Positions 12,326 through 63,406 of a stretch of 64,000 nt of DNA are shown piece after piece. The notes beneath the pieces were generated by a model. That model did not search any database. It saw nothing but the letters and a program-made list of their open reading frames with translations, and had not been told where the DNA came from. Every line of letters begins with the position of its first letter. Within the stretch, counting starts at the first letter, position 1. This DNA comes from Chloroflexota bacterium (GTDB lineage Bacteria > Chloroflexota > Anaerolineae > Anaerolineales > Anaerolineaceae), in the NCBI GenBank assembly GCA_021779955.1, contig JAJXZS010000001.1, positions 1-64,000 on the forward strand. Reading direction: 5' to 3'. The position numbers were made by a program, and so were the translations under genes.

Positions 12326-13267
12326 ATGCAGAATATCAACGACAAGATTCGCGGCATGGTCGTCGGCTCAGTGACCGGAGACGCGCTAGGCATGCCGCTC
12401 GAATTTCATGCTCCACGCGAGCTCAACAACCTGGCCCGTGAAATGGAGATGGGACCGCTGCCGGCCGGAACGTTCACCGATGACACCGAGATGGCGTTGG
12501 CGCTTGCCGAGAGCCTGCTCGAGCATTCTCCGCTCGACGGCGAAGATTTTACTCAACGCCTGCTGGCCTGGGTGCAGAACCGCCCTGCGGACATCGGCAT
12601 CCACACCTCGAAAGTCTTAAGCCTGATCGCGAATGGAATAAGCTGGCGCGAAGCCTCGGAACGCGTTCAAAGCGAGGATCCCCAGAACGCAGGAAACGGT
12701 TCGTTGATGCGCACCTGGCCCGTGGCTGCCATCCATCACAATAATCCGGGCCTGCTGATCGCTGAATCGCGCCTCCAATCGCAAATCACGCATGCTCATG
12801 CGGACTGCGTCAACGCCTGCGTTTTCCTCGATCTTGTCCTCGCCGACCTTATCCACCGCGATTCGCGCAAGACCCCCAACGCCGCGTTGCGCGAAGTGAT
12901 CACCTCATCGCTCACCAGGATTTCGCTTGGCAAGGATTTCGAGTTGCTGATCAAACTGGCAGCGGTGAGACAGCGCGATGCTCTACCCAACAGCGGTTGG
13001 GTAAGGCATACTCTCGAGAGCGCACTCTGGGCTGTGTTGACCACGCAGACGTTCGAAGATGCCCTGATCAGCGCCGTCAACCTGGGGAATGACGCCGATA
13101 CGGCGGGCGCCGTCACTGGCGCAATCGCCGGTGCGCTTTACGGCTACGAAGCCATTCCCGCGCGTTGGAAAGCTGTCATCCACGGCGAGTATCCGCTGCG
13201 GTCTGGAAGAATCTGGTTCCTGCAGGACTTCCTCAACCTGGCAGATGAAATGGCGGAAGAGGGGTAA
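12326..13267 (+). CDS. ADP-ribosylglycohydrolase family protein (first copy)
   Basis: Enzyme of the ARH/DraG family that removes ADP-ribose from proteins or other targets (313 residues). Di-metal motifs seen: GDALGMPLEF near the N-terminus, FTDDTEMALALAESLL, and GNDADTAGAVTGAIAG near the C-terminus. No Shine-Dalgarno site precedes ATG 12326; instead an extended -10 (TGCGATAAT, 12310-12318) ends 7 nt before it, so a leaderless mRNA is likely. A second, shorter family member is at 37753. Target unknown. Confidence 0.9.
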   Translation: MQNINDKIRGMVVGSVTGDALGMPLEFHAPRELNNLAREMEMGPLPAGTFTDDTEMALALAESLLEHSPLDGEDFTQRLLAWVQNRPADIGIHTSKVLSLIANGISWREASERVQSEDPQNAGNGSLMRTWPVAAIHHNNPGLLIAESRLQSQITHAHADCVNACVFLDLVLADLIHRDSRKTPNAALREVITSSLTRISLGKDFELLIKLAAVRQRDALPNSGWVRHTLESALWAVLTTQTFEDALISAVNLGNDADTAGAVTGAIAGALYGYEAIPARWKAVIHGEYPLRSGRIWFLQDFLNLADEMAEEG

Positions 13268-35831: not shown

Positions 35832-36887
35832 CTAGGTGGTTCCCGAAGGCACCGGCTCAGTTTTGGCTTCCTGCAATGCCTTGTCCCACTTGATCCCCTC
35901 GCGAGCGAAGTAGATGGCGCCCAGAACGGTGATCGGCAGCCATAAGGCAGCGTGCAGCACCAGGGTATAGCCTGTGGCGATCCCGGGTTCAACACCGTAA
36001 GCCGTCAATACCGCGATGCCGGGCGCGTCGAATGTGCCGATATACCCGGGCGCCGATGGGATTGTCGTCGCCAGGTTGACGATGCCGTTCATCAGCATCA
36101 GGGCGAAGAAGCTCACCTGGAAATCGAAGGCGTGCATCACCAGCCAGTACTTGCCCGTCTCGAGCAGCCAGATCACCACCGAGGTGAGGAAAACCATCAG
36201 CGCGTCTTTGGGTGAACGCAGCGATTCGAGACCGGAGAGGAACTTGTGCACGAGCGGGAAGGTCTTCTCGCGCCATTTGAGCGGCAGGATTTTGTTACCA
36301 ACCGCGTAGATAATATTTTCAGCTTTCTCGGGGAACATGGCTGCCAGGATGAACACGAGCAATACCCCGAAGAAGATTACGGCGCCCCAGATTGCCAGCG
36401 ATTCGATACTTCCGAGGAAACCCGAGGTTCCGTTCAACTTGGCCACCTCGGGCAGGTTGAGGAACACAAACCCGAGCATCACGACGCCGTCGAAGATGCG
36501 CTCGATGATCACCGTCGCCAGGGACGCTGAAACGGGAACGCCCTCGCGTCGTTTGAGCACGACCGCCCTCACCACCTCGCCGGCGCGCGCGGGTAGCACG
36601 TTGTTGCCGAAATAACCGATGCAAACCACCGGGAACATTGCCAGGGTCGGCACATTTTTCACGGGCCGCAGCAAGTAATGCCACCGCCACGAGCGCGCCC
36701 ATACCGCCACAAAATACACGGCGATACCCGGGATCACCCAGAGGTAATGGGCTGTTTTGAGAGCTTGCCAGATGTCAACCAGGGGTTGATTGTGCAGGGC
36801 CCAGGCGAGTAACGCGATGCTGATGACCACGCCGAGCCAAAATTGCCATCTTTTCATGGCGTCAATTTTACCATTAAGATTTCTCAT
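35832..36887 (-). CDS. UPF0104 / lysylphosphatidylglycerol synthase-like membrane protein
   Basis: 351-residue integral membrane protein. Start ATG 36887 (MRNLNGKIDAMKRW) follows AGAGGGGTGCAAC; ATG 36857 is an alternative without a good site. The family pattern is clear: eight or so helices, with NVLPARAGEVVRAVVLKRRE in the first third, GYIGTFDAPGIAVLTAYGV near the end and ATGYTLVLHAALWLPITVLG last. This is the flippase-like domain without the catalytic synthetase domain. Family members without that domain are thought to handle lipid or glycolipid movement; exact role unknown. Confidence 0.85.
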   Translation of the reverse strand: MRNLNGKIDAMKRWQFWLGVVISIALLAWALHNQPLVDIWQALKTAHYLWVIPGIAVYFVAVWARSWRWHYLLRPVKNVPTLAMFPVVCIGYFGNNVLPARAGEVVRAVVLKRREGVPVSASLATVIIERIFDGVVMLGFVFLNLPEVAKLNGTSGFLGSIESLAIWGAVIFFGVLLVFILAAMFPEKAENIIYAVGNKILPLKWREKTFPLVHKFLSGLESLRSPKDALMVFLTSVVIWLLETGKYWLVMHAFDFQVSFFALMLMNGIVNLATTIPSAPGYIGTFDAPGIAVLTAYGVEPGIATGYTLVLHAALWLPITVLGAIYFAREGIKWDKALQEAKTEPVPSGTT

Positions 36888-37053
36888 GTTGCACCCCTCT
36901 CTTGCATCCCACAGGGCAAAGCATCGGAGAAACATCGCACCGAAAACAATCCGGCCAATCCTGTAGGGGCAAAGCATCGGAGAGCCATCGCGGTGTCGTA
37001 ACCACCCAACCTATTCCGTAGCTTTGCCCGCTACCAACGTTGTCTTGCCTGGC

Positions 37054-37121
37054 AGGGGTGAAGCGGCTTGAAACCTATGCACATGCCGGCGATCTATCCA
37101 CTTCCAGGCCGCTTCACCCCT
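37054..37121. repeat. 14-bp inverted repeat in a gene-free stretch
   Basis: AGGGGTGAAGCGGC (37054-37067) and GCCGCTTCACCCCT (37108-37121) form a perfect 14-bp stem around 40 nt. Two related direct copies of GCAAAGCATCGGAGA lie just before it (near 36916 and 36968). GCTTCACCCCTAC recurs near 63300. The 36888-37170 region holds no gene; it looks like dispersed repeat debris. Confidence 0.65.
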
Positions 37122-37173
37122 ACTTCTTCCGTCCGTGCCGCCTTACAATTACCTTAAAATTTCCCCAAACCCC

Positions 37174-37202
37174 TTGACAAATTAGAATATGTGTTCTATA
37201 AT
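37174..37202 (+). promoter_or_regulatory. Consensus promoter overlapping a LexA-like palindrome
   Basis: TTGACA (37174-37179), 17-nt spacer, TATAAT (37197-37202): both boxes are perfect sigma70 consensus. Inside the spacer, AGAATATGTGTTCT (37184-37197) is an imperfect palindrome with core GAAT-ATGT-GTTC, one base from the GAAC-N4-GTTC core of Gram-positive LexA boxes. A strong promoter with an operator in its spacer suggests tight repression. Repressor identity is inferred. Confidence 0.7.
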
Positions 37203-37248
37203 AATGATCTGAACTATTCAGCCTTACGCAAAATAGGAGGGGATCACC

Positions 37249-37344
37249 TTGAACTCTATCAATTCAACCGCCCGGTTTTTGACCGCTCTCCACGATCCAC
37301 TCCCTCCCGATTCGTTCCGATTCGACCCCATTTTTTTAAATTGA
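37249..37344 (+). CDS. Possible short ORF (31 residues), TTG start
   Basis: Begins 7 nt after AGGAGGGG with TTG, coding MNSINSTARFLTALHDPLPP and 11 more residues, then TGA. It follows the consensus promoter at 37174 and precedes the ATL gene. The strong ribosome site has no other user nearby, so a leader peptide or truncated gene is possible. Nothing in the peptide is recognised. Confidence 0.35.
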   Translation: MNSINSTARFLTALHDPLPPDSFRFDPIFLN

Positions 37345-37396
37345 CAAATCGAATCGCCCATCCCAATCTTCCCTACTATAATGGAGGTGTATCCAA

Positions 37397-37756
37397 ATGG
37401 AAAAAGAACCCAAGCTTTTCGGCCTGATCTATCAGACCATCCGCCAGATCCCGCCTGGCAAGATCGCCAGCTACGGGCAGATCTCCAGGATCGTCGGTCA
37501 CTGCTCGGCGCAGATGATAGGGTTTGCGCTCGCGGCATTGCGCGACAACTCCACCGAGCCAGAGGTTCCGTGGCAGCGCGTGGTCAATTCGCAAGGACGC
37601 GTTGCGCTGCCTGGCGAATACGGCAAGAACATGCAGCGTCAGCTCCTCGAAGACGAAGGCGTCGAATTCACCGAAGACGGGGTGATCGATTTCAACCGCT
37701 TCGGTTGGCTGGGCGCTCCACCCTCTTTCAAGCTGAAAGGCAAAGCCTCACAATGA
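37397..37756 (+). CDS. Alkyltransferase-like protein (MGMT family, ATL)
   Basis: 119-residue DNA-binding domain of the O6-alkylguanine-DNA alkyltransferase family. The active-site PCHRV of true alkyltransferases is replaced by PWQRVV, so there is no acceptor Cys and it cannot remove the alkyl group. ATL proteins of this type bind O6-alkylguanine and hand it to nucleotide excision repair. HTH region IPPGKIASYGQISRIVG and the arginine-finger region are kept; a C-terminal tail rich in Lys follows. GGAGG at 37384 serves the ATG at 37397. The next gene overlaps by ATGA, so translation is coupled. Confidence 0.9.
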   Translation: MEKEPKLFGLIYQTIRQIPPGKIASYGQISRIVGHCSAQMIGFALAALRDNSTEPEVPWQRVVNSQGRVALPGEYGKNMQRQLLEDEGVEFTEDGVIDFNRFGWLGAPPSFKLKGKASQ

Positions 37757-38517
37757 TCGGTGCGATCGCAGGCGACATCATCGGTTCCATCTACGAGTGG
37801 CACAATATCAAGACCACGCAGTTCCCGCTCTTTGGCGAGCGCTGCCGGTTCACAGACGACAGCGTGCTCACCATCGCCCTTGCTGATGCCATCCTCAGCG
37901 GCGCGGAGTACACCACCCTGCTCAAGCGCTATTACCGCGCCTACCCGGATTCCGGCTTTGGCGGTCATTTCGCGGCCTGGGCGATCAGTGAAGACAGTTC
38001 GCCCTACGGCTCGTGGGGTAACGGCGCCGCCATGCGCATCAGCCCTGCCGGTTTTGCCTACCCAACGCTCGATGAGACCCTGCGCAAAGCCTATGAATTC
38101 ACCGCGGTCACACACGATCATCCGGAGGGCATCAAGGGCGGGCAAGCCACTGCGTCAGCCATTTTCCTTGCCCGCACAGGCAATTCGAAGGCCGATATCC
38201 GCAGCTACATCACCTCCACTTTCGGCTATGATCTCACGCGCACCCTGGACGAGATTCGCCCCGCCTACCGCTACGACATCTCCTCGCAGGGCACCGTCCC
38301 CCAGGCGATCACCGCCTTTCTCGAGTCCGATGATTTCGAGGACGCCATCCGCAAAGCCGTCTCGCTCGGCGGCGATTGCGATACGCTTACCTGCATCACA
38401 GGCGGCATCGCCCAGGCGTTTTACGGTGTGCCTGACGAAATCGCCAGCCAGGTCTATACTTATCTTGACGAACCTCTCAGCGAAGTTGTCCGCCGCTTCA
38501 CTGCAGCCTATTGTTAG
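37753..38517 (+). CDS. ADP-ribosylglycohydrolase family protein (second copy)
   Basis: 254-residue ARH/DraG-family enzyme whose ATG overlaps the ATL stop by 4 nt. Metal motifs: GAIAGDIIGSIYEW, CRFTDDSVLTIALADAIL and GGDCDTLTCITGGIAQAFYG. It is shorter and differs strongly from the family member at 12326, so it is not a recent duplicate. Coupling to an alkylation-damage sensor suggests reversal of ADP-ribosylation on DNA or repair proteins, by analogy with DarG-like glycohydrolases; this is inference. Confidence 0.9.
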   Translation: MIGAIAGDIIGSIYEWHNIKTTQFPLFGERCRFTDDSVLTIALADAILSGAEYTTLLKRYYRAYPDSGFGGHFAAWAISEDSSPYGSWGNGAAMRISPAGFAYPTLDETLRKAYEFTAVTHDHPEGIKGGQATASAIFLARTGNSKADIRSYITSTFGYDLTRTLDEIRPAYRYDISSQGTVPQAITAFLESDDFEDAIRKAVSLGGDCDTLTCITGGIAQAFYGVPDEIASQVYTYLDEPLSEVVRRFTAAYC

Positions 38518-38526
38518 GAGAATGCT

Positions 38527-39009
38527 TTGGCTACCGCTGTACCCCCAGTAATGACACCGGAAATTGCTTACCGCAAACGCCGCTCGTGGTTGTTGTGGAT
38601 GACCTTTGTCTTGATGATCGCTGCGACTGCGCTCAATTTTATGGTCGCCACCATCAACCCCATGCAGCGCGAGCTCGAGCAATGCAATCTCAATTACGAA
38701 TTGCGCCGGACGCCAGGCAATAACCTGCCTGAATATTCCATGAATGAATTCAACCGCTGCGCGGACGCAGGCGCCTCAGCATCGACCTATTTCTTCCTCA
38801 CAGCATTGATGATGCTCTTCAATTTTGCCGCCCTCGATGGACTGATGGCAGGCAGGGTGCGTGCGCTGATCGCCTACGGCATCGGCGTAGCCTGGGTGCT
38901 CGGGGTCAGCCTGGTGATGGGGGCGGGCATCCCGCTGACATTCGTCACCGTCAATATCCCCATCCTCGCCCTGCTCTACCTGCTCTTCCGCCGCAAAGAA
39001 CTCGTCTGA
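38527..39009 (+). CDS. Four-helix membrane protein of unknown function
   Basis: 160-residue membrane protein starting at TTG 38527 with AGGAG 6 nt upstream (ATG 38522 is in another frame). Helices at about residues 21-42, 85-105, 110-130 and 132-152, ending in the basic tail LLFRRKELV. The loop between helices 1 and 2 (MQRELEQCNLNYELRRTPG) holds two Cys, perhaps extracytoplasmic. It is 9 nt after the ADP-ribosylglycohydrolase gene, so it belongs to that operon. Confidence 0.75.
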   Translation: MATAVPPVMTPEIAYRKRRSWLLWMTFVLMIAATALNFMVATINPMQRELEQCNLNYELRRTPGNNLPEYSMNEFNRCADAGASASTYFFLTALMMLFNFAALDGLMAGRVRALIAYGIGVAWVLGVSLVMGAGIPLTFVTVNIPILALLYLLFRRKELV

Positions 39010-39088: not shown

Positions 39089-40741
39089 CTAGTCCAAATT
39101 CGGGAGGGCATTGCAGTAGATCATCTGGTCTTCCCAGGTGAAGTAGGTGAGATTGCTCCCTCCCAGCAAATGGATCTGGTTGAGCGAAGGCGCGTTCGCT
39201 TCGAGCAACTTGACCGCGTTCGCTTGCCCGAAGTGATATGACTGCCATGGTCGGGTAGCCTGACCTTGTGATTCCTGCAAGCGACAGGCAAGGAGGAGCC
39301 CAAGCGCTTCGTGCACCTTCGCGGGTACTGTGGTGTCGTTGTAGTATTTGACCATTGCGGGAACGGCATCAGATGAAAGGGTGCTGAGATAATTCACGTC
39401 AAGCGATTCCCCGATCATCGCCCGCCCCACATTCTTGCGTACGATGAAGCCTTCCACATTCATCACGGCTAATGTCGCGCTGAAGCCGACGACCGCGATC
39501 AGAAGCGCCAGGCCGAAACGCCCGCGTTTCTGCAGCAGTTCGAGCACCGCTGCTGCGACCACCAGCCCTCCAAGCCAGAAGATGAAGATATGCGGAAGTG
39601 TGCGCATCACGGTAAAGCCGTATGTGGATTCGTAGAGCATCAACCGGGTGAGCGAAGAAGCCAGGATCACCAGCACATTGGCCATCAGCAGCACGATCAG
39701 CGCCGTGAACGCAATTCGGGTTCCCTTCGATTCGAGCCGCGTGATCGTAGACAGGACAAGGAAGAGCAGCAGGCTGAGCGTTGCCACCCACACCAGTTCA
39801 TTGAAGCCGCGAACGGCATATTGAGAATAGGTGAAGCCGGTTTCGCTGATGTTCGCGGATCCGCCAAACAGGTAGCGTATTTGCAGGGTGACGAAGATGA
39901 TGAACAGGACGTCGAGCGCGCCAAGCAAAATCCCGGTCTCAGTAAAGCCCAGGAAGGGTTTCAGCCAGGCTTTGGACGTGTCCGGTCGCTCCACTTTTGC
40001 CGCAGGCAGGATGGCATGCAGGTAAACGCCCACGAGCGCGAAACCGAGGATGATGATCAAGATCAGGCGCAGGAGGTATTCAGGCAGCTTTTCGATGTTC
40101 AGGATCTGCGTCACGCCGGCGTTGAAGACGGGGTCGGCTGAGGCGAAAAGCGCGATGAAAACGGCAAGCACGGGAATGGCAATAATCACCCCACGGATGA
40201 CCGGCGCGGCGCGCCTTCGCGATGCGATAGCTGACCGTTTGGCTCCGGCAGCAGCCAATTCAACTGAAGCCGGATTTTCCGGGGATGGGATCGCTGACGG
40301 AGACTGCGGGGCTGCTTCACCTGCCGCGGGCAGCGCCTGGGGCGTGCTCAGGCTGATGAACGGGCGCGATACGGCTCCCCACATCACGCCCAGGCCGTTG
40401 GTGACGTAGTCTACGATGCGATAGCTCAACCAGTGGCCGTTGAGGAAAGTGGCAGCAAGCAGCACAATCCCGCCGCCGGCCATCAGGATGCTGTACATCA
40501 CCGTCGGTCCATTGGACCGGAAGGCAACTACTGTGGAGAACAGCACGATGAGAACTGCCAGCAGCACCGACCAGGCGGAAGGCCGTTGCCCTTCACGCCA
40601 GCTCAACAGGAATCCGATGAGCAGCGCAACTGTAATCCAGATTGGAAAGGAGATACCAGGGGCTTTACCCCAGAACAGGAAGTCCGCAAACCAGGCTGTT
40701 AGAAGCGCAGCCGGCCAGAACCATTTTGATTTAGTGACCAT
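39089..40741 (-). CDS. DUF4173-containing membrane protein
   Basis: 550-residue polytopic membrane protein with about 12 hydrophobic segments. Family-type features: FVTLQIRYLFGGSANI followed by SQYAVRGFNELVWVATLSLL, a pattern typical of DUF4173/DUF4153. The C-terminus is soluble and contains NVEGFIVRKNVGRAM and Asn-Tyr repeats (DVNYLSTLSSDAVPAMVKYY). Start ATG 40741 follows AGAGGAGTT. Function unknown; members are often next to sensor or regulator genes, but none is here. Confidence 0.82.
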   Translation of the reverse strand: MVTKSKWFWPAALLTAWFADFLFWGKAPGISFPIWITVALLIGFLLSWREGQRPSAWSVLLAVLIVLFSTVVAFRSNGPTVMYSILMAGGGIVLLAATFLNGHWLSYRIVDYVTNGLGVMWGAVSRPFISLSTPQALPAAGEAAPQSPSAIPSPENPASVELAAAGAKRSAIASRRRAAPVIRGVIIAIPVLAVFIALFASADPVFNAGVTQILNIEKLPEYLLRLILIIILGFALVGVYLHAILPAAKVERPDTSKAWLKPFLGFTETGILLGALDVLFIIFVTLQIRYLFGGSANISETGFTYSQYAVRGFNELVWVATLSLLLFLVLSTITRLESKGTRIAFTALIVLLMANVLVILASSLTRLMLYESTYGFTVMRTLPHIFIFWLGGLVVAAAVLELLQKRGRFGLALLIAVVGFSATLAVMNVEGFIVRKNVGRAMIGESLDVNYLSTLSSDAVPAMVKYYNDTTVPAKVHEALGLLLACRLQESQGQATRPWQSYHFGQANAVKLLEANAPSLNQIHLLGGSNLTYFTWEDQMIYCNALPNLD

Positions 40742-42851: not shown

Positions 42852-42881
42852 CAAACATATGTTCCATCGAAGGGGAGGGTT

Positions 42882-44030
42882 ATGCCCGTCAATTACATTG
42901 CACTAGGTCAACAGATCACATCCCTTGGCGATTCAGCCATTCAGCGTAACGGCGAGATCCAGGAGAAGCTGGCAAGGTGCCGGCAACTCCTGGCGCAGTA
43001 CGCCAACGAAATCATCCCGCTTCAGCAAAAAGTGGAGGAGGCCGTATCGCGCGAAAGTGGCCTTCGCTGCGCCAAACCCTATCACGAAGCGCTGACCTTG
43101 CACGCGTCTTCGCCGGTCACTCCCGGGGAATGCGTGCTTCTCGCCGCGGACGGATCGCAGATCACGCCAAATCCGCACGAACCTGTGCTCTTTGGCCTGG
43201 TGAATATCGGCGTCTTCCGTATGCCCCTGAACCTGGGCGGCGCACCCTCAGAAAGCATCGAATCGGTATTGCTCTACGATGATGCGTTGTTCACTTCGGC
43301 CGGCATGATCTCAGACGATCTCGTAGGGCTTCTGAGAGACGTGCGCGAACGCGAGGTCATGGTGCAGCTTGTCAGGACAGAAAAGATCATCGACCCCAGC
43401 ATGCCTGTCATCACGCTCACCGACGGCCCGCTAGAGTTTTTCCACGAGCCCAGAACGGACAAGCAATTTGCTCCGCAATTCAACAAATACCTGGCAGCCC
43501 TCGACGAGTTGAGCCTTCAAGGGGCAATCACGGCAGGTTACGTGGATCGACCAAGGGCCGACCTGGTCGTCCGCCTGATGGAGCTGGTCGAATCGTCAGG
43601 TGTCGAACGCCCGTTCACCGGCCTGACCGATCTGCTTCTGTTCTCCGACTTGCTCCAACCCGGAGAGCGCACCGCGGTGTTCGAACTGCAGTCAACTTCA
43701 TCCAAGACCTACGTTGGGAATAAGGCTTTGCACTTTTTCTATCTCAACGTCTCCAGATCGAACAAGCCGGCGATTGCGCGTGTCGAGATCCCTGCCTGGG
43801 TAGCCAGGGATAAGGATGTTCTCAATCTTCTACAGAGCGTCCTGGTCGACCAGGCGAACACGTCGGGCAACCAGCCGTATCCATATGCTCTCCTCCGCGC
43901 GCACGAGATTGCCGTGGTCAAAAGAGAAGATAACACCCAGCTTACCTGGTTGATCGAACAGGAGCTTATTCGCCAGGGGTTCGATCCATCCGAAAAATCC
44001 AACAAACAGTCAGGCAAAGATGCCGTATAG
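42882..44030 (+). CDS. nurA: NurA-family nuclease
   Basis: 382-residue nuclease that works with HerA in DNA end resection. Start ATG 42882 follows GGGGAGGGTT. Seen: the NurA metal motif VLLAADGSQITPNPHEPV (DGSQ), a second acidic site LTDGPLEFFHEP, and the C-terminal segment ARVEIPAWVARDKDVLNLLQ with Asp/Arg-rich tail. N-terminal helices are coiled-coil-like (NGEIQEKLARCRQLLAQYA). In archaea NurA has 5'-3' exonuclease activity; bacterial members are also seen in anti-phage loci. First gene of a three-gene operon. Confidence 0.88.
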   Translation: MPVNYIALGQQITSLGDSAIQRNGEIQEKLARCRQLLAQYANEIIPLQQKVEEAVSRESGLRCAKPYHEALTLHASSPVTPGECVLLAADGSQITPNPHEPVLFGLVNIGVFRMPLNLGGAPSESIESVLLYDDALFTSAGMISDDLVGLLRDVREREVMVQLVRTEKIIDPSMPVITLTDGPLEFFHEPRTDKQFAPQFNKYLAALDELSLQGAITAGYVDRPRADLVVRLMELVESSGVERPFTGLTDLLLFSDLLQPGERTAVFELQSTSSKTYVGNKALHFFYLNVSRSNKPAIARVEIPAWVARDKDVLNLLQSVLVDQANTSGNQPYPYALLRAHEIAVVKREDNTQLTWLIEQELIRQGFDPSEKSNKQSGKDAV

Positions 44031-61783: not shown

Positions 61784-62770
61784 ATGGTCGAACCAATCAA
61801 GAAATTTCAACGCATCGGAGTGATGACTTCCGGAGGCGACGCCCCGGGTATGAATCCATTCATCCGGGCGGTTGTGCGCACTGCAGCAGGAGAAGGGATC
61901 CAGGTTTTCGGTATTGAAGCCGCATTCGAAGGTTTGATGCACGGCAAGTTCCGCGAGATGGGTATTCGCGAGGTGGGCGGCATTCTACAGCGCGGCGGCA
62001 CCATCCTGATGACCGCACGCAGCAAGGAATTCCGCGAACCGGCAGGTCAGCTCGAAGCGATTCGCCAAATCAACAATGCCGGCTTGGATGCGATTATCAT
62101 TGCCGGCGGCGACGGCTCTTTGAACGGCGCACAGGTGCTCGCGAAACACGGCATACCGGTAATCGGCGTGCCGGCCAGCATCGACAATGACATCTACGGC
62201 ACGGACATGTGCATCGGAGTGGATACTGCGCTCAACACAATCGTCGATGCCATCGACAAGATCCGCGATACGGCATCTTCACACACCCGCGCGTTTATCA
62301 TCGAGACTATGGGACGCGAATCTGGTTACCTGGCCATCCAGGCGGGTATCGTCACCGGAGCAGAACTTGTTCTGATCCCCGAAAGCGACCTCAAACCCGA
62401 AGACGTTGCAAGAACGATCGCAGATGCCTACAAGCGGGGGAAAACGCACGCGATCGTGGTGGTTGCCGAAGGGTACCATCCGGGTGCTCTGGAGCTTGGC
62501 GCCATGATCGATGCCATGGACATCGGATTTACCATGCGCGTGTCGATTCTGGGTCACATTCAGCGCGGCGGCAAGCCAAGCGCGTACGACAGGCTGCTTG
62601 CCTCACGGCTTGGGGTTAAGGCCGTCGAATTTCTGATAGCCGGATACACCAACGTGATGACCGGGTTGAACGGCCGCGATATTGTGCCTGTGCCGATCGA
62701 GGAAGTGGTGAGCAACACGCGCAGGATCAACCCGGATTACATTCACATCGCCCAGATCCTGTCGAGATAA
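61784..62770 (+). CDS. pfkA: 6-phosphofructokinase
   Basis: 328-residue glycolytic enzyme that phosphorylates fructose 6-phosphate. Seen: GVMTSGGDAPGMNPFIRAVV, the GGDGS motif (Gly after GGD points to ATP use rather than pyrophosphate), PASIDNDIYGTDMCIG with the catalytic Asp and ETMGRESGYLA. A typical allosteric/dimer region follows (SILGHIQRGGKPSAYDRLLA). Starts 13 nt after dnaE and likely shares its mRNA. Confidence 0.94.
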   Translation: MVEPIKKFQRIGVMTSGGDAPGMNPFIRAVVRTAAGEGIQVFGIEAAFEGLMHGKFREMGIREVGGILQRGGTILMTARSKEFREPAGQLEAIRQINNAGLDAIIIAGGDGSLNGAQVLAKHGIPVIGVPASIDNDIYGTDMCIGVDTALNTIVDAIDKIRDTASSHTRAFIIETMGRESGYLAIQAGIVTGAELVLIPESDLKPEDVARTIADAYKRGKTHAIVVVAEGYHPGALELGAMIDAMDIGFTMRVSILGHIQRGGKPSAYDRLLASRLGVKAVEFLIAGYTNVMTGLNGRDIVPVPIEEVVSNTRRINPDYIHIAQILSR

Positions 62771-62821: not shown

Positions 62822-63128
62822 CGATTTCAGCCTGCCCGCCCGCGTTTTTGAATTTGCACCCCTAGCTACAGCCCTGGCACGTTCTTAGTGTCATGGGTGA
62901 AGTGCCCTCCCTGTGGCCCGATAGTGCACCCATCCCGCCCCAGAGTGGTGCGGAGTGTAAGTTTGCAGTGTGTTCGAGTCACGACCCGTTCTGCCTGAGT
63001 GCACTAAATATGAGCGAACAGGTATGGTTTCGATAACTGCGGGAATGAATCGAAACGAATCTGACTCAGCCGTGTTGATGGCGTGACATGCCTATAGGGG
63101 ATGTTAAGGTGCAATCGCTCATGTTTTT
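62822..63128 (-). other. Gene-free region with inverted repeats, candidate noncoding RNA
   Basis: No supportable ORF. It lies downstream, on the minus strand, of a consensus promoter (63129-63156). Inverted repeats: ATGAGCGA (63010-63017) with TCGCTCAT (63115-63122); GTTTCGAT (63027-63034) with ATCGAAAC (63049-63056); AGTGCAC (62923-62929) with GTGCACT (62999-63005); TTGCACC (62854-62860) with GGTGCAA (63108-63114). The first and last cross, as in a pseudoknot. A few 7-8-bp repeats are expected by chance in 300 nt, so structure is only suggested. Known RNase P, tmRNA and SRP RNA core motifs were not found. Confidence 0.3.
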
Positions 63129-63156
63129 ATTATAGCACATTTGTTCTATTTGTCAA
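63129..63156 (-). promoter_or_regulatory. Second consensus promoter with LexA-like palindrome
   Basis: On the minus strand TTGACA (63156-63151), 16-nt spacer, TATAAT (63134-63129). The spacer holds AGAACAAATGTGCT (63147-63134), core GAAC-AAAT-GTGC, one base from GAAC-N4-GTTC. It is nearly the same as the promoter at 37174-37202 over its length. The driven gene is not identified; the region downstream has no ORF. Confidence 0.6.
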
Positions 63157-63406
63157 GTGGTTTAGAGGTTTTTTAAGCTGGGATTTGGAATTTTTAAGAT
63201 TGGGAAAAGACGATAGGCTCTTTGGGGAAGGGTCATCATGGGGGGGGTGAACTTACTTGAATGTGTGGGGTCTTCCTGCGTGCGAGTGGTCCCCACGCTG
63301 CTTCACCCCTACCGCTGGCGGTCACGATGCTACATATTTATGGTGTGTGTCATACCAGTAAGATAGTTCACACCTACGGTTGGGGTATATTCGTTTGGAG
63401 CGAATA

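Follow-up and report, generated by a model that had tools for sequence, protein, structure and literature searches.

An alkyltransferase-like gene and an ADP-ribosylglycohydrolase gene behind a predicted LexA-controlled promoter of a dispersed element in an Anaerolineaceae genome

The DNA analyzed here (the window; 64,000 nucleotides) belongs to a genome of 2.83 Mb. Three genes lie on its forward strand between a divergent flippase-like gene and a convergent DUF4153 gene, and they encode an alkyltransferase-like (ATL-type) protein, an ADP-ribosylglycohydrolase (ARH), and a small membrane protein. The features of the locus, together with a second copy of the promoter element discussed below, are as follows.

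35832-36857, reverse strand: flippase-like/LPG-synthase-TM gene, divergent neighbor of the ATL gene, with its start taken at the Met of MKRWQFW
~36880-37350: segment of ~450 bp absent from the 12 relatives compared; both ends are estimates
36914-36938 and 36967-36991: direct repeat in this extra segment
37054-37073 and 37102-37121: inverted repeat in this extra segment
37148-37218, forward strand: element copy, matched by model R1 with 52.9 bits; the E-value is 5.7e-14 when the genome is searched and 1.3e-15 for a search of the window
37174-37202, forward strand: promoter P1, TTGACA-17-TATAAT
37184-37197, forward strand: LexA-type box AGAATATGTGTTCT, inside the P1 spacer and extending to the -10 hexamer
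37309-37337, forward strand: 29-nt stretch identical, by eye, to the sequence after the terminase-small-subunit-like (TerS-like) gene of element copy L136
37377-37382, forward strand: TATAAT, a -10-like sequence without a good -35 (by eye) and a candidate ancestral ATL promoter, P2
37397-37756, forward strand: ATL-type protein, 119 amino acids, PF01035
37511-37513, forward strand: Gln39, which takes the place of the arginine finger (Arg in the aligned 2kif and 3gva)
37571-37573, forward strand: Trp59 in PWQRV, replacing the catalytic Cys
37753-38517, forward strand: ADP-ribosylglycohydrolase (ARH family), 254 amino acids, PF03747, overlapping the ATL gene by ATGA
38527-39009, forward strand: small hydrophobic (membrane) protein, 160 amino acids, TTG start
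39089-40741, reverse strand: DUF4153 gene, convergent neighbor
63097-63210, reverse strand: second element copy in the window, 83.8 bits, one of the training copies of model R1

The preliminary description of this DNA had read the first gene as an ATL whose catalytic Cys is replaced by Trp, and our searches agree with that identification (PF01035 with an E-value of 6.9e-18; residue 59 is the Trp). A PDB sequence search at an E-value of 0.001 matched the protein to 2kif and to S. pombe Atl1 (3gva) only, and Foldseek placed 2kif, 3gva, and 3gx4 at the top of the matches to its AlphaFold model (mean pLDDT of 80). Like the known ATLs from E. coli, S. pombe (Atl1, 3gva), and V. parahaemolyticus (2kif), it has a lone PF01035 domain, a Trp in place of the Cys, and the same fold; unlike them, it carries Gln at the arginine-finger position, shares an operon with an ARH gene, and stands behind an SOS-type promoter. 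Trp occupies the catalytic position in 80/80 of the best 80 of at least 373 named relatives, a set skewed toward Trp because the search patterns included VPWQRV. A normal PCHRV alkyltransferase is encoded elsewhere in the same genome.

What does the missing arginine finger mean for this protein? The arginine finger flips the base in alkyltransferases and is described as conserved in ATLs, and E. coli ATL binds UvrA and UvrC, handing lesions to excision repair (cited passages of PMC10779285). Because this conserved residue is Gln here, O6-alkylguanine sensing is uncertain, and we call the protein an ATL-type variant and not a proven damage sensor. It may have lost the recognition of O6-alkylguanine altogether and play another role, such as DNA binding without flipping or the recruitment of UvrA, which we regard as a serious possibility that falls short of an even chance. 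The distribution of the residue favors such a loss, with Gln in 16 and Arg in 64 of the same best 80 of at least 373 relatives; the records of these 16 all bear the name Anaerolineaceae, Anaerolineales, Longilinea, or Chloroflexi bacterium, and Gln is also found in all 12 genus loci read. However, the base-flipping Tyr26 and Trp59 are invariant in 14/14 aligned proteins, the modeled fold is the same, and Gln may yet be able to occupy the helix gap.

The ARH gene, described earlier as coupled to the ATL gene, is read directly in the sequence with its ATGA overlap, and its product matches PF03747 with an E-value of 4.4e-35. The best structural model (pLDDT of 87.2) was built from 4 sequences, with three of the five models below 57, and its fold matches those of ARH3, MJ1187, and DraG. 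The protein contains TDD at residues 34 to 36 and GGDxDT at 206 to 211, which we take to be the metal-binding Asp motifs of the ARH family; their Asp residues are invariant in the ARH proteins of the four loci at which the two genes are paired. It resembles ARH3, DraG, MJ1187, and the T. thermophilus protein 2cwc in its domain, fold, and motifs. It shares ~20 to 23% identity with the solved members, and its NCBIfam scores for DraG (53.2 of 337.05 bits) and Tri1 (43.3 of 490 bits) fall well short of the cut-offs. The ATL and ARH genes both fall into known families, as members or as variants. In vitro, ARH-like enzymes can free the phosphate ends of nucleic acids from ADP-ribose (as given in the cited part of PMC11833690), and the ARH at this locus probably acts on its own substrate, separate from the ATL-type protein. 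The third gene, for a membrane protein, is present as previously noted (38527-39009); at the thresholds applied, its hydrophobic product matched no family in Pfam, NCBIfam, or PHROG, and in the genus genome G060 a homologue follows the ATL gene without an ARH gene there.

P1 agrees with the consensus at 12/12 positions, and the palindrome GAATATGTGTTC occupies positions 37185-37196 of its spacer, just as the preliminary description had it. The left half-site departs from GAAC at position 4, with T for C (GAAT). Perfect TTGACA-N15-20-TATAAT promoters occur 32 times in the whole genome, versus once for the reversed control pattern, and 16/32 contain a GAAYN4GTNC box. The bare pattern GAAYN4GTTC was rejected as stand-alone evidence: the 9 matches in the window, versus a mean of 4.04 expected, were reached by 6/100 shuffles and are not significant. 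Genome-wide, this pattern matches 127 times on each strand and its reversed control 87 and 90 times. A stricter form, GAAYRTRYGTTC, has 5 matches per strand in the genome versus 2 for its control, and, besides those at lexA and ATL, none precedes an evident SOS gene as judged by eye. Between the -10 of P1 and the ATL start codon lies a leader of 194 nt. This leader contains, by eye, a short TTG open reading frame preceded by a good ribosome-binding site, which could lower ATL translation. A TATAAT or similar -10-like sequence directly upstream of ATL, such as that of P2, is also seen by eye in relatives.

P1 and its box lie within DNA that the 12 relatives compared do not have at this place. 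The intergenic region between the ATL and flippase-like genes is 539 nt long here versus 47 to 107 nt in these 12. Twelve of the boxed perfect promoters in this genome align over ~60 nt and share the blocks CTTAAAA, AAACCCC, TTGACA, TAGAACANNTGTGC, and TATAAT. A model (R1) built from those 12 copies, with the ATL copy excluded, matched this genome at 26 sites. Of these, 24 reach at least 31.9 bits, among them the ATL site and the 12 training copies. At the same score, the genus genomes G060 and G071 contain four copies (37.2 to 54.0 bits) and one copy (40.1 bits), respectively, and none was found in the other 13 of 16 genus genomes (best, 30.2 bits). All of these are lower bounds, since 150 first-look candidates were scored per genome, and the ends of the element are only roughly placed. 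One copy is the recA promoter of this genome. The element is present at the ATL site in 1/13 genomes and at the site of a pfkA-like gene (61784-62770), which the copy at 63097-63210 faces convergently with no sense gene called before it, in 2/13, as judged from a pattern match in the sequence downstream. At the latter site it carries a TerS-like gene in G060 and lacks it here; two further matches to the pfkA pattern (L313 and L314) have no element flanks.

A hairpin-like 3' block follows the box by 85 to 293 nt in 11/23 non-ATL copies of this genome and in 0/4 copies of G060. TerS-like genes are found in L135 and L136 of this genome and in L219 and L221 of G060; all four are similar to the L219 gene by tblastn, and among the three scanned against PHROG, L136 and L219 gave matches and L135 gave none. 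In L137, only the first and last codons of such a gene appear to be left, by eye. An internally deleted element copy at the ATL gene would be expected to show an exact match to the 3' part of L136, as the 29-nt stretch does, and we take this stretch as a putative remnant of the element's 3' part.

Could P1 then serve the element itself, by driving the TerS-like gene or a short transcript, so that with the gene lost here any effect on ATL and ARH is incidental read-through? We consider this rather unlikely, although the TerS-like gene follows the promoter in the four copies just named, L137 retains apparent gene remnants only, and, because the gene ahead is convergent for 6/24 copies and 1 is followed by no called gene, the element need not serve host genes. 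Against it, the next called gene is in the sense direction for 17/24 copies (14 of them within 750 nt), and one copy is the promoter of recA; the counts from the open reading frame caller are rough, and what is listed as the next gene of the ATL copy is a spurious, overlapping frame. Mobile promoters and MITE-like elements are already known (PMC8049555, in the part cited), and the present element resembles them as a short, dispersed, promoter-bearing sequence with many copies that is present or absent at orthologous sites. It differs from them in its SOS-type operator and in the TerS-like gene of some copies. Among the matches listed, we found no bacterial study whose title or abstract makes such a link between LexA and mobile promoters or MITEs.

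Is the palindrome a LexA operator? The genome has one clear lexA gene, with Peptidase_S24 and LexA_DNA_bind domains, and a second, weaker match that falls under the family cut-off. The native lexA promoter contains GAACGTATGTTC between TTGACA and TATAAT, and a box is kept at this place in 16/16 genus genomes searched, with GAAC in 10 and GGAC in 6. The recA gene of the 16th genus genome begins at the edge of its contig, leaving 15 recA promoters to read. In 14 of these a box directly precedes the -10, as GAAC-N4-GTNC in 13 and as GAAC-N4-GGTC in 1; only that of L162 (G101) has no box. A symmetric matrix was built from 28 boxes of the relatives' lexA and recA promoters, without any site of this genome. 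With this matrix, the ATL box scores 10.2 and ranks 3 of 63,987 window positions, behind the other element copy (at 63134) and a site preceding a NurA gene. A one-strand matrix puts it 4th on one strand and 7th on the other, with the higher-scoring sites located within other genes or close to them. One further perfect promoter is of the GAAT kind, C49 (AGAATTGGTGTTCT), and it scores only -0.6. The palindrome's agreement with the native LexA box, as deduced from the genus lexA and recA promoters, is supported, and predicted LexA control of the ATL operon, the regulatory idea of the preliminary description, is well supported at the level of sequence.

A position in a strong promoter does not by itself single out LexA, and the operator might belong to another repressor, for example one encoded by the element family. 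The right half-box of the element would fit such a repressor, being GTGC in 11/12 aligned copies, GTAC in 1, and GTTC in none. However, closely related boxes are found in the same promoter part in recA (14/15) and lexA (16/16) of the genus, and the lexA/recA matrix gives 16.5 or 12.3 for a box typical of the element; we think an operator of a different repressor improbable. LexA/SOS boxes of the GAAC-N4-GTTC type are known from Bacillus and Mycobacterium (cited part of PMC3323433), and the predicted regulon resembles theirs in box type, in lexA autoregulation, and in recA as a likely member. Unlike in those bacteria, the boxes here either fall within the -35/-10 spacer or directly adjoin the -10; GTGC and GTAC are frequent as right halves, and many boxes of this genome belong to a dispersed element.

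On the sequences compared, the LexA-type box is new at the ATL gene in this genome. A good box was found in the ATL intergenic region of 0/12 relatives, with a best score of 1.9 versus 10.2 here. The three relatives that also have the ATL-ARH pair give best scores of -0.5, -0.6, and -0.5. The intergenic region of G113, one of the three, contains a bare match to GAATTCCAGTTC that scores below -0.6 and lies, by eye, outside any promoter spacer.

The preliminary description also treated the ATL and ARH genes as a paired system, and this part is not supported by the comparison with relatives. In 121 genomes of the family, the ATL query had a match in 87 and the ARH query in 82 (E-value of 0.001; both tallies also count weak hits from related families). 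The two genes are neighbors in only three, the genome studied here (G000), G113, and G117, a count from which fragmented assemblies could conceal further pairs. Among the best 80 of at least 373 named ATL loci, several of them cut by contig ends, 3 have ARH next to ATL (G113, G117, and JAKAFP010000003.1). Including the window there are four distinct ATL-ARH loci, and the ARH proteins of the three others are 67 to 71% identical. At the other genus loci read, ATL stands beside the flippase-like gene, mostly with DUF4153 on the other side, and without ARH. In other genera ARH has unrelated neighbors; one likely sugar dehydrogenase, named by eye, is common to 10/30 loci, and no ADP-ribose-related gene was seen by eye among the neighbors in these 30 loci. 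We found no paper combining "alkyltransferase-like protein" with "ADP-ribosylglycohydrolase." We reject ATL-ARH as a conserved two-gene system on these frequencies and unrelated neighbors, and we consider it highly improbable that the two form a dedicated damage system in which the ATL senses O6-alkylguanine and the ARH undoes the ADP-ribosylation of DNA or of repair proteins, since the ATGA coupling, the common SOS-type promoter, the TDD and GGDxDT motifs kept at all four loci, and the precedent of PARG in a damage-induced Deinococcus operon (in the cited part of PMC11833690) are set against the rarity of the pair, three pair-bearing relatives without a good LexA-type box there, the other neighbors of ARH elsewhere, the missing arginine finger, and a locus with no ADP-ribosyltransferase beside ARH.

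The reading that we favor, with moderate confidence, is that an ordinary ATL-type gene and a free-standing ARH gene were recruited to SOS control by the insertion of an element resembling a mobile promoter. The ATL-type gene would have been resident at the locus, as in the genus members read, and the ARH and membrane protein genes would have joined it in this genome. The insertion of ~450 bp between ATL and its divergent neighbor would then have brought in P1 as a new promoter from the dispersed element. LexA bound between the -35 and the -10 would block P1; upon DNA damage, RecA-driven cleavage of LexA would open it, transcription would read through the leader into ATL, and all three genes would go up. 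The older promoter just before ATL may provide basal expression, perhaps weaker and constitutive. The ATL-type protein may flag bulky or alkylated guanines as targets of UvrA-type excision repair, and the ARH may cleave ADP-ribose from its own substrates, independently of the ATL-type protein.

The part that appears unexpected is a dispersed SOS-type promoter element that places the ATL operon and recA behind similar promoters. We hypothesize, more tentatively and on the doubtful side of even, that a mobile element with its own LexA-type operator has spread to 24 or more sites of this genome, often loses its TerS-like gene, and leaves a bare SOS promoter that recruits host genes (recA, the ATL-ARH operon, a nucleoside kinase, and others), the recruited ATL being a natural ATL without the arginine finger. 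Natural ATLs of this kind would be a ready test of how far ATL function needs base flipping. The SOS response of the Anaerolineae seems little described; a full-text search combining SOS response and LexA gave a single paper for this group, a review whose subject is plastic waste and resistance genes. If our hypothesis is right, membership in the SOS response would have spread in these bacteria by promoter-bearing insertions and not by point changes.

Further features lie in the window and elsewhere in the same genome:

63097-63210, minus strand: second copy in the window of the dispersed element with an SOS-type promoter, facing the end of a pfkA-like gene that runs convergently to it
36914-37121: short repeats, both direct and inverted (GGGCAAAGCATCGGAGA; inverted repeat of the AGGGGTGAAGCGGCTT type)
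12362-13147, plus strand: second gene of the ADP-ribosylglycohydrolase family, a distant relative of the first (PF03747, E 6e-66)
42882-44030, plus strand: NurA-domain nuclease gene (PF09376, E 5.7e-18)
G000:C4:26305-26334 (locus L130): perfect promoter containing AGAACTTATGTTCT, matrix score 16.5

At the equivalent pfkA-like site, the genus relative G060 carries an element copy with a gene resembling terminase small subunits, and the downstream DNA available for this site gave no element-like match in 11 other genus genomes. Small proteins of this terminase-like kind lie immediately downstream of SOS-type promoters at L135, L136, L219 and L221 (in G000, the genome containing the window, and G060); their motif is RGAxxGNxNAxxHGxY.

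By eye, sequences resembling the repeats upstream of the alkyltransferase-like gene were also seen near element copies L133, L134 and L138. In the alkyltransferase-like protein itself, Gln replaces the arginine finger (37511-37513), as in 16 of 80 relatives; the replacement is common to all genus loci read and to some other Anaerolineales.

The L130 promoter precedes the gene for an 82-residue protein with no match in Pfam or PHROG, which is a candidate small SOS protein. Ahead of the NurA-domain gene, immediately 3' of a TATAAT, lies the LexA-like CAAACATATGTTCC (42852-42865), the second-best score in the window with the symmetric matrix. This nuclease gene is possibly a further SOS gene.
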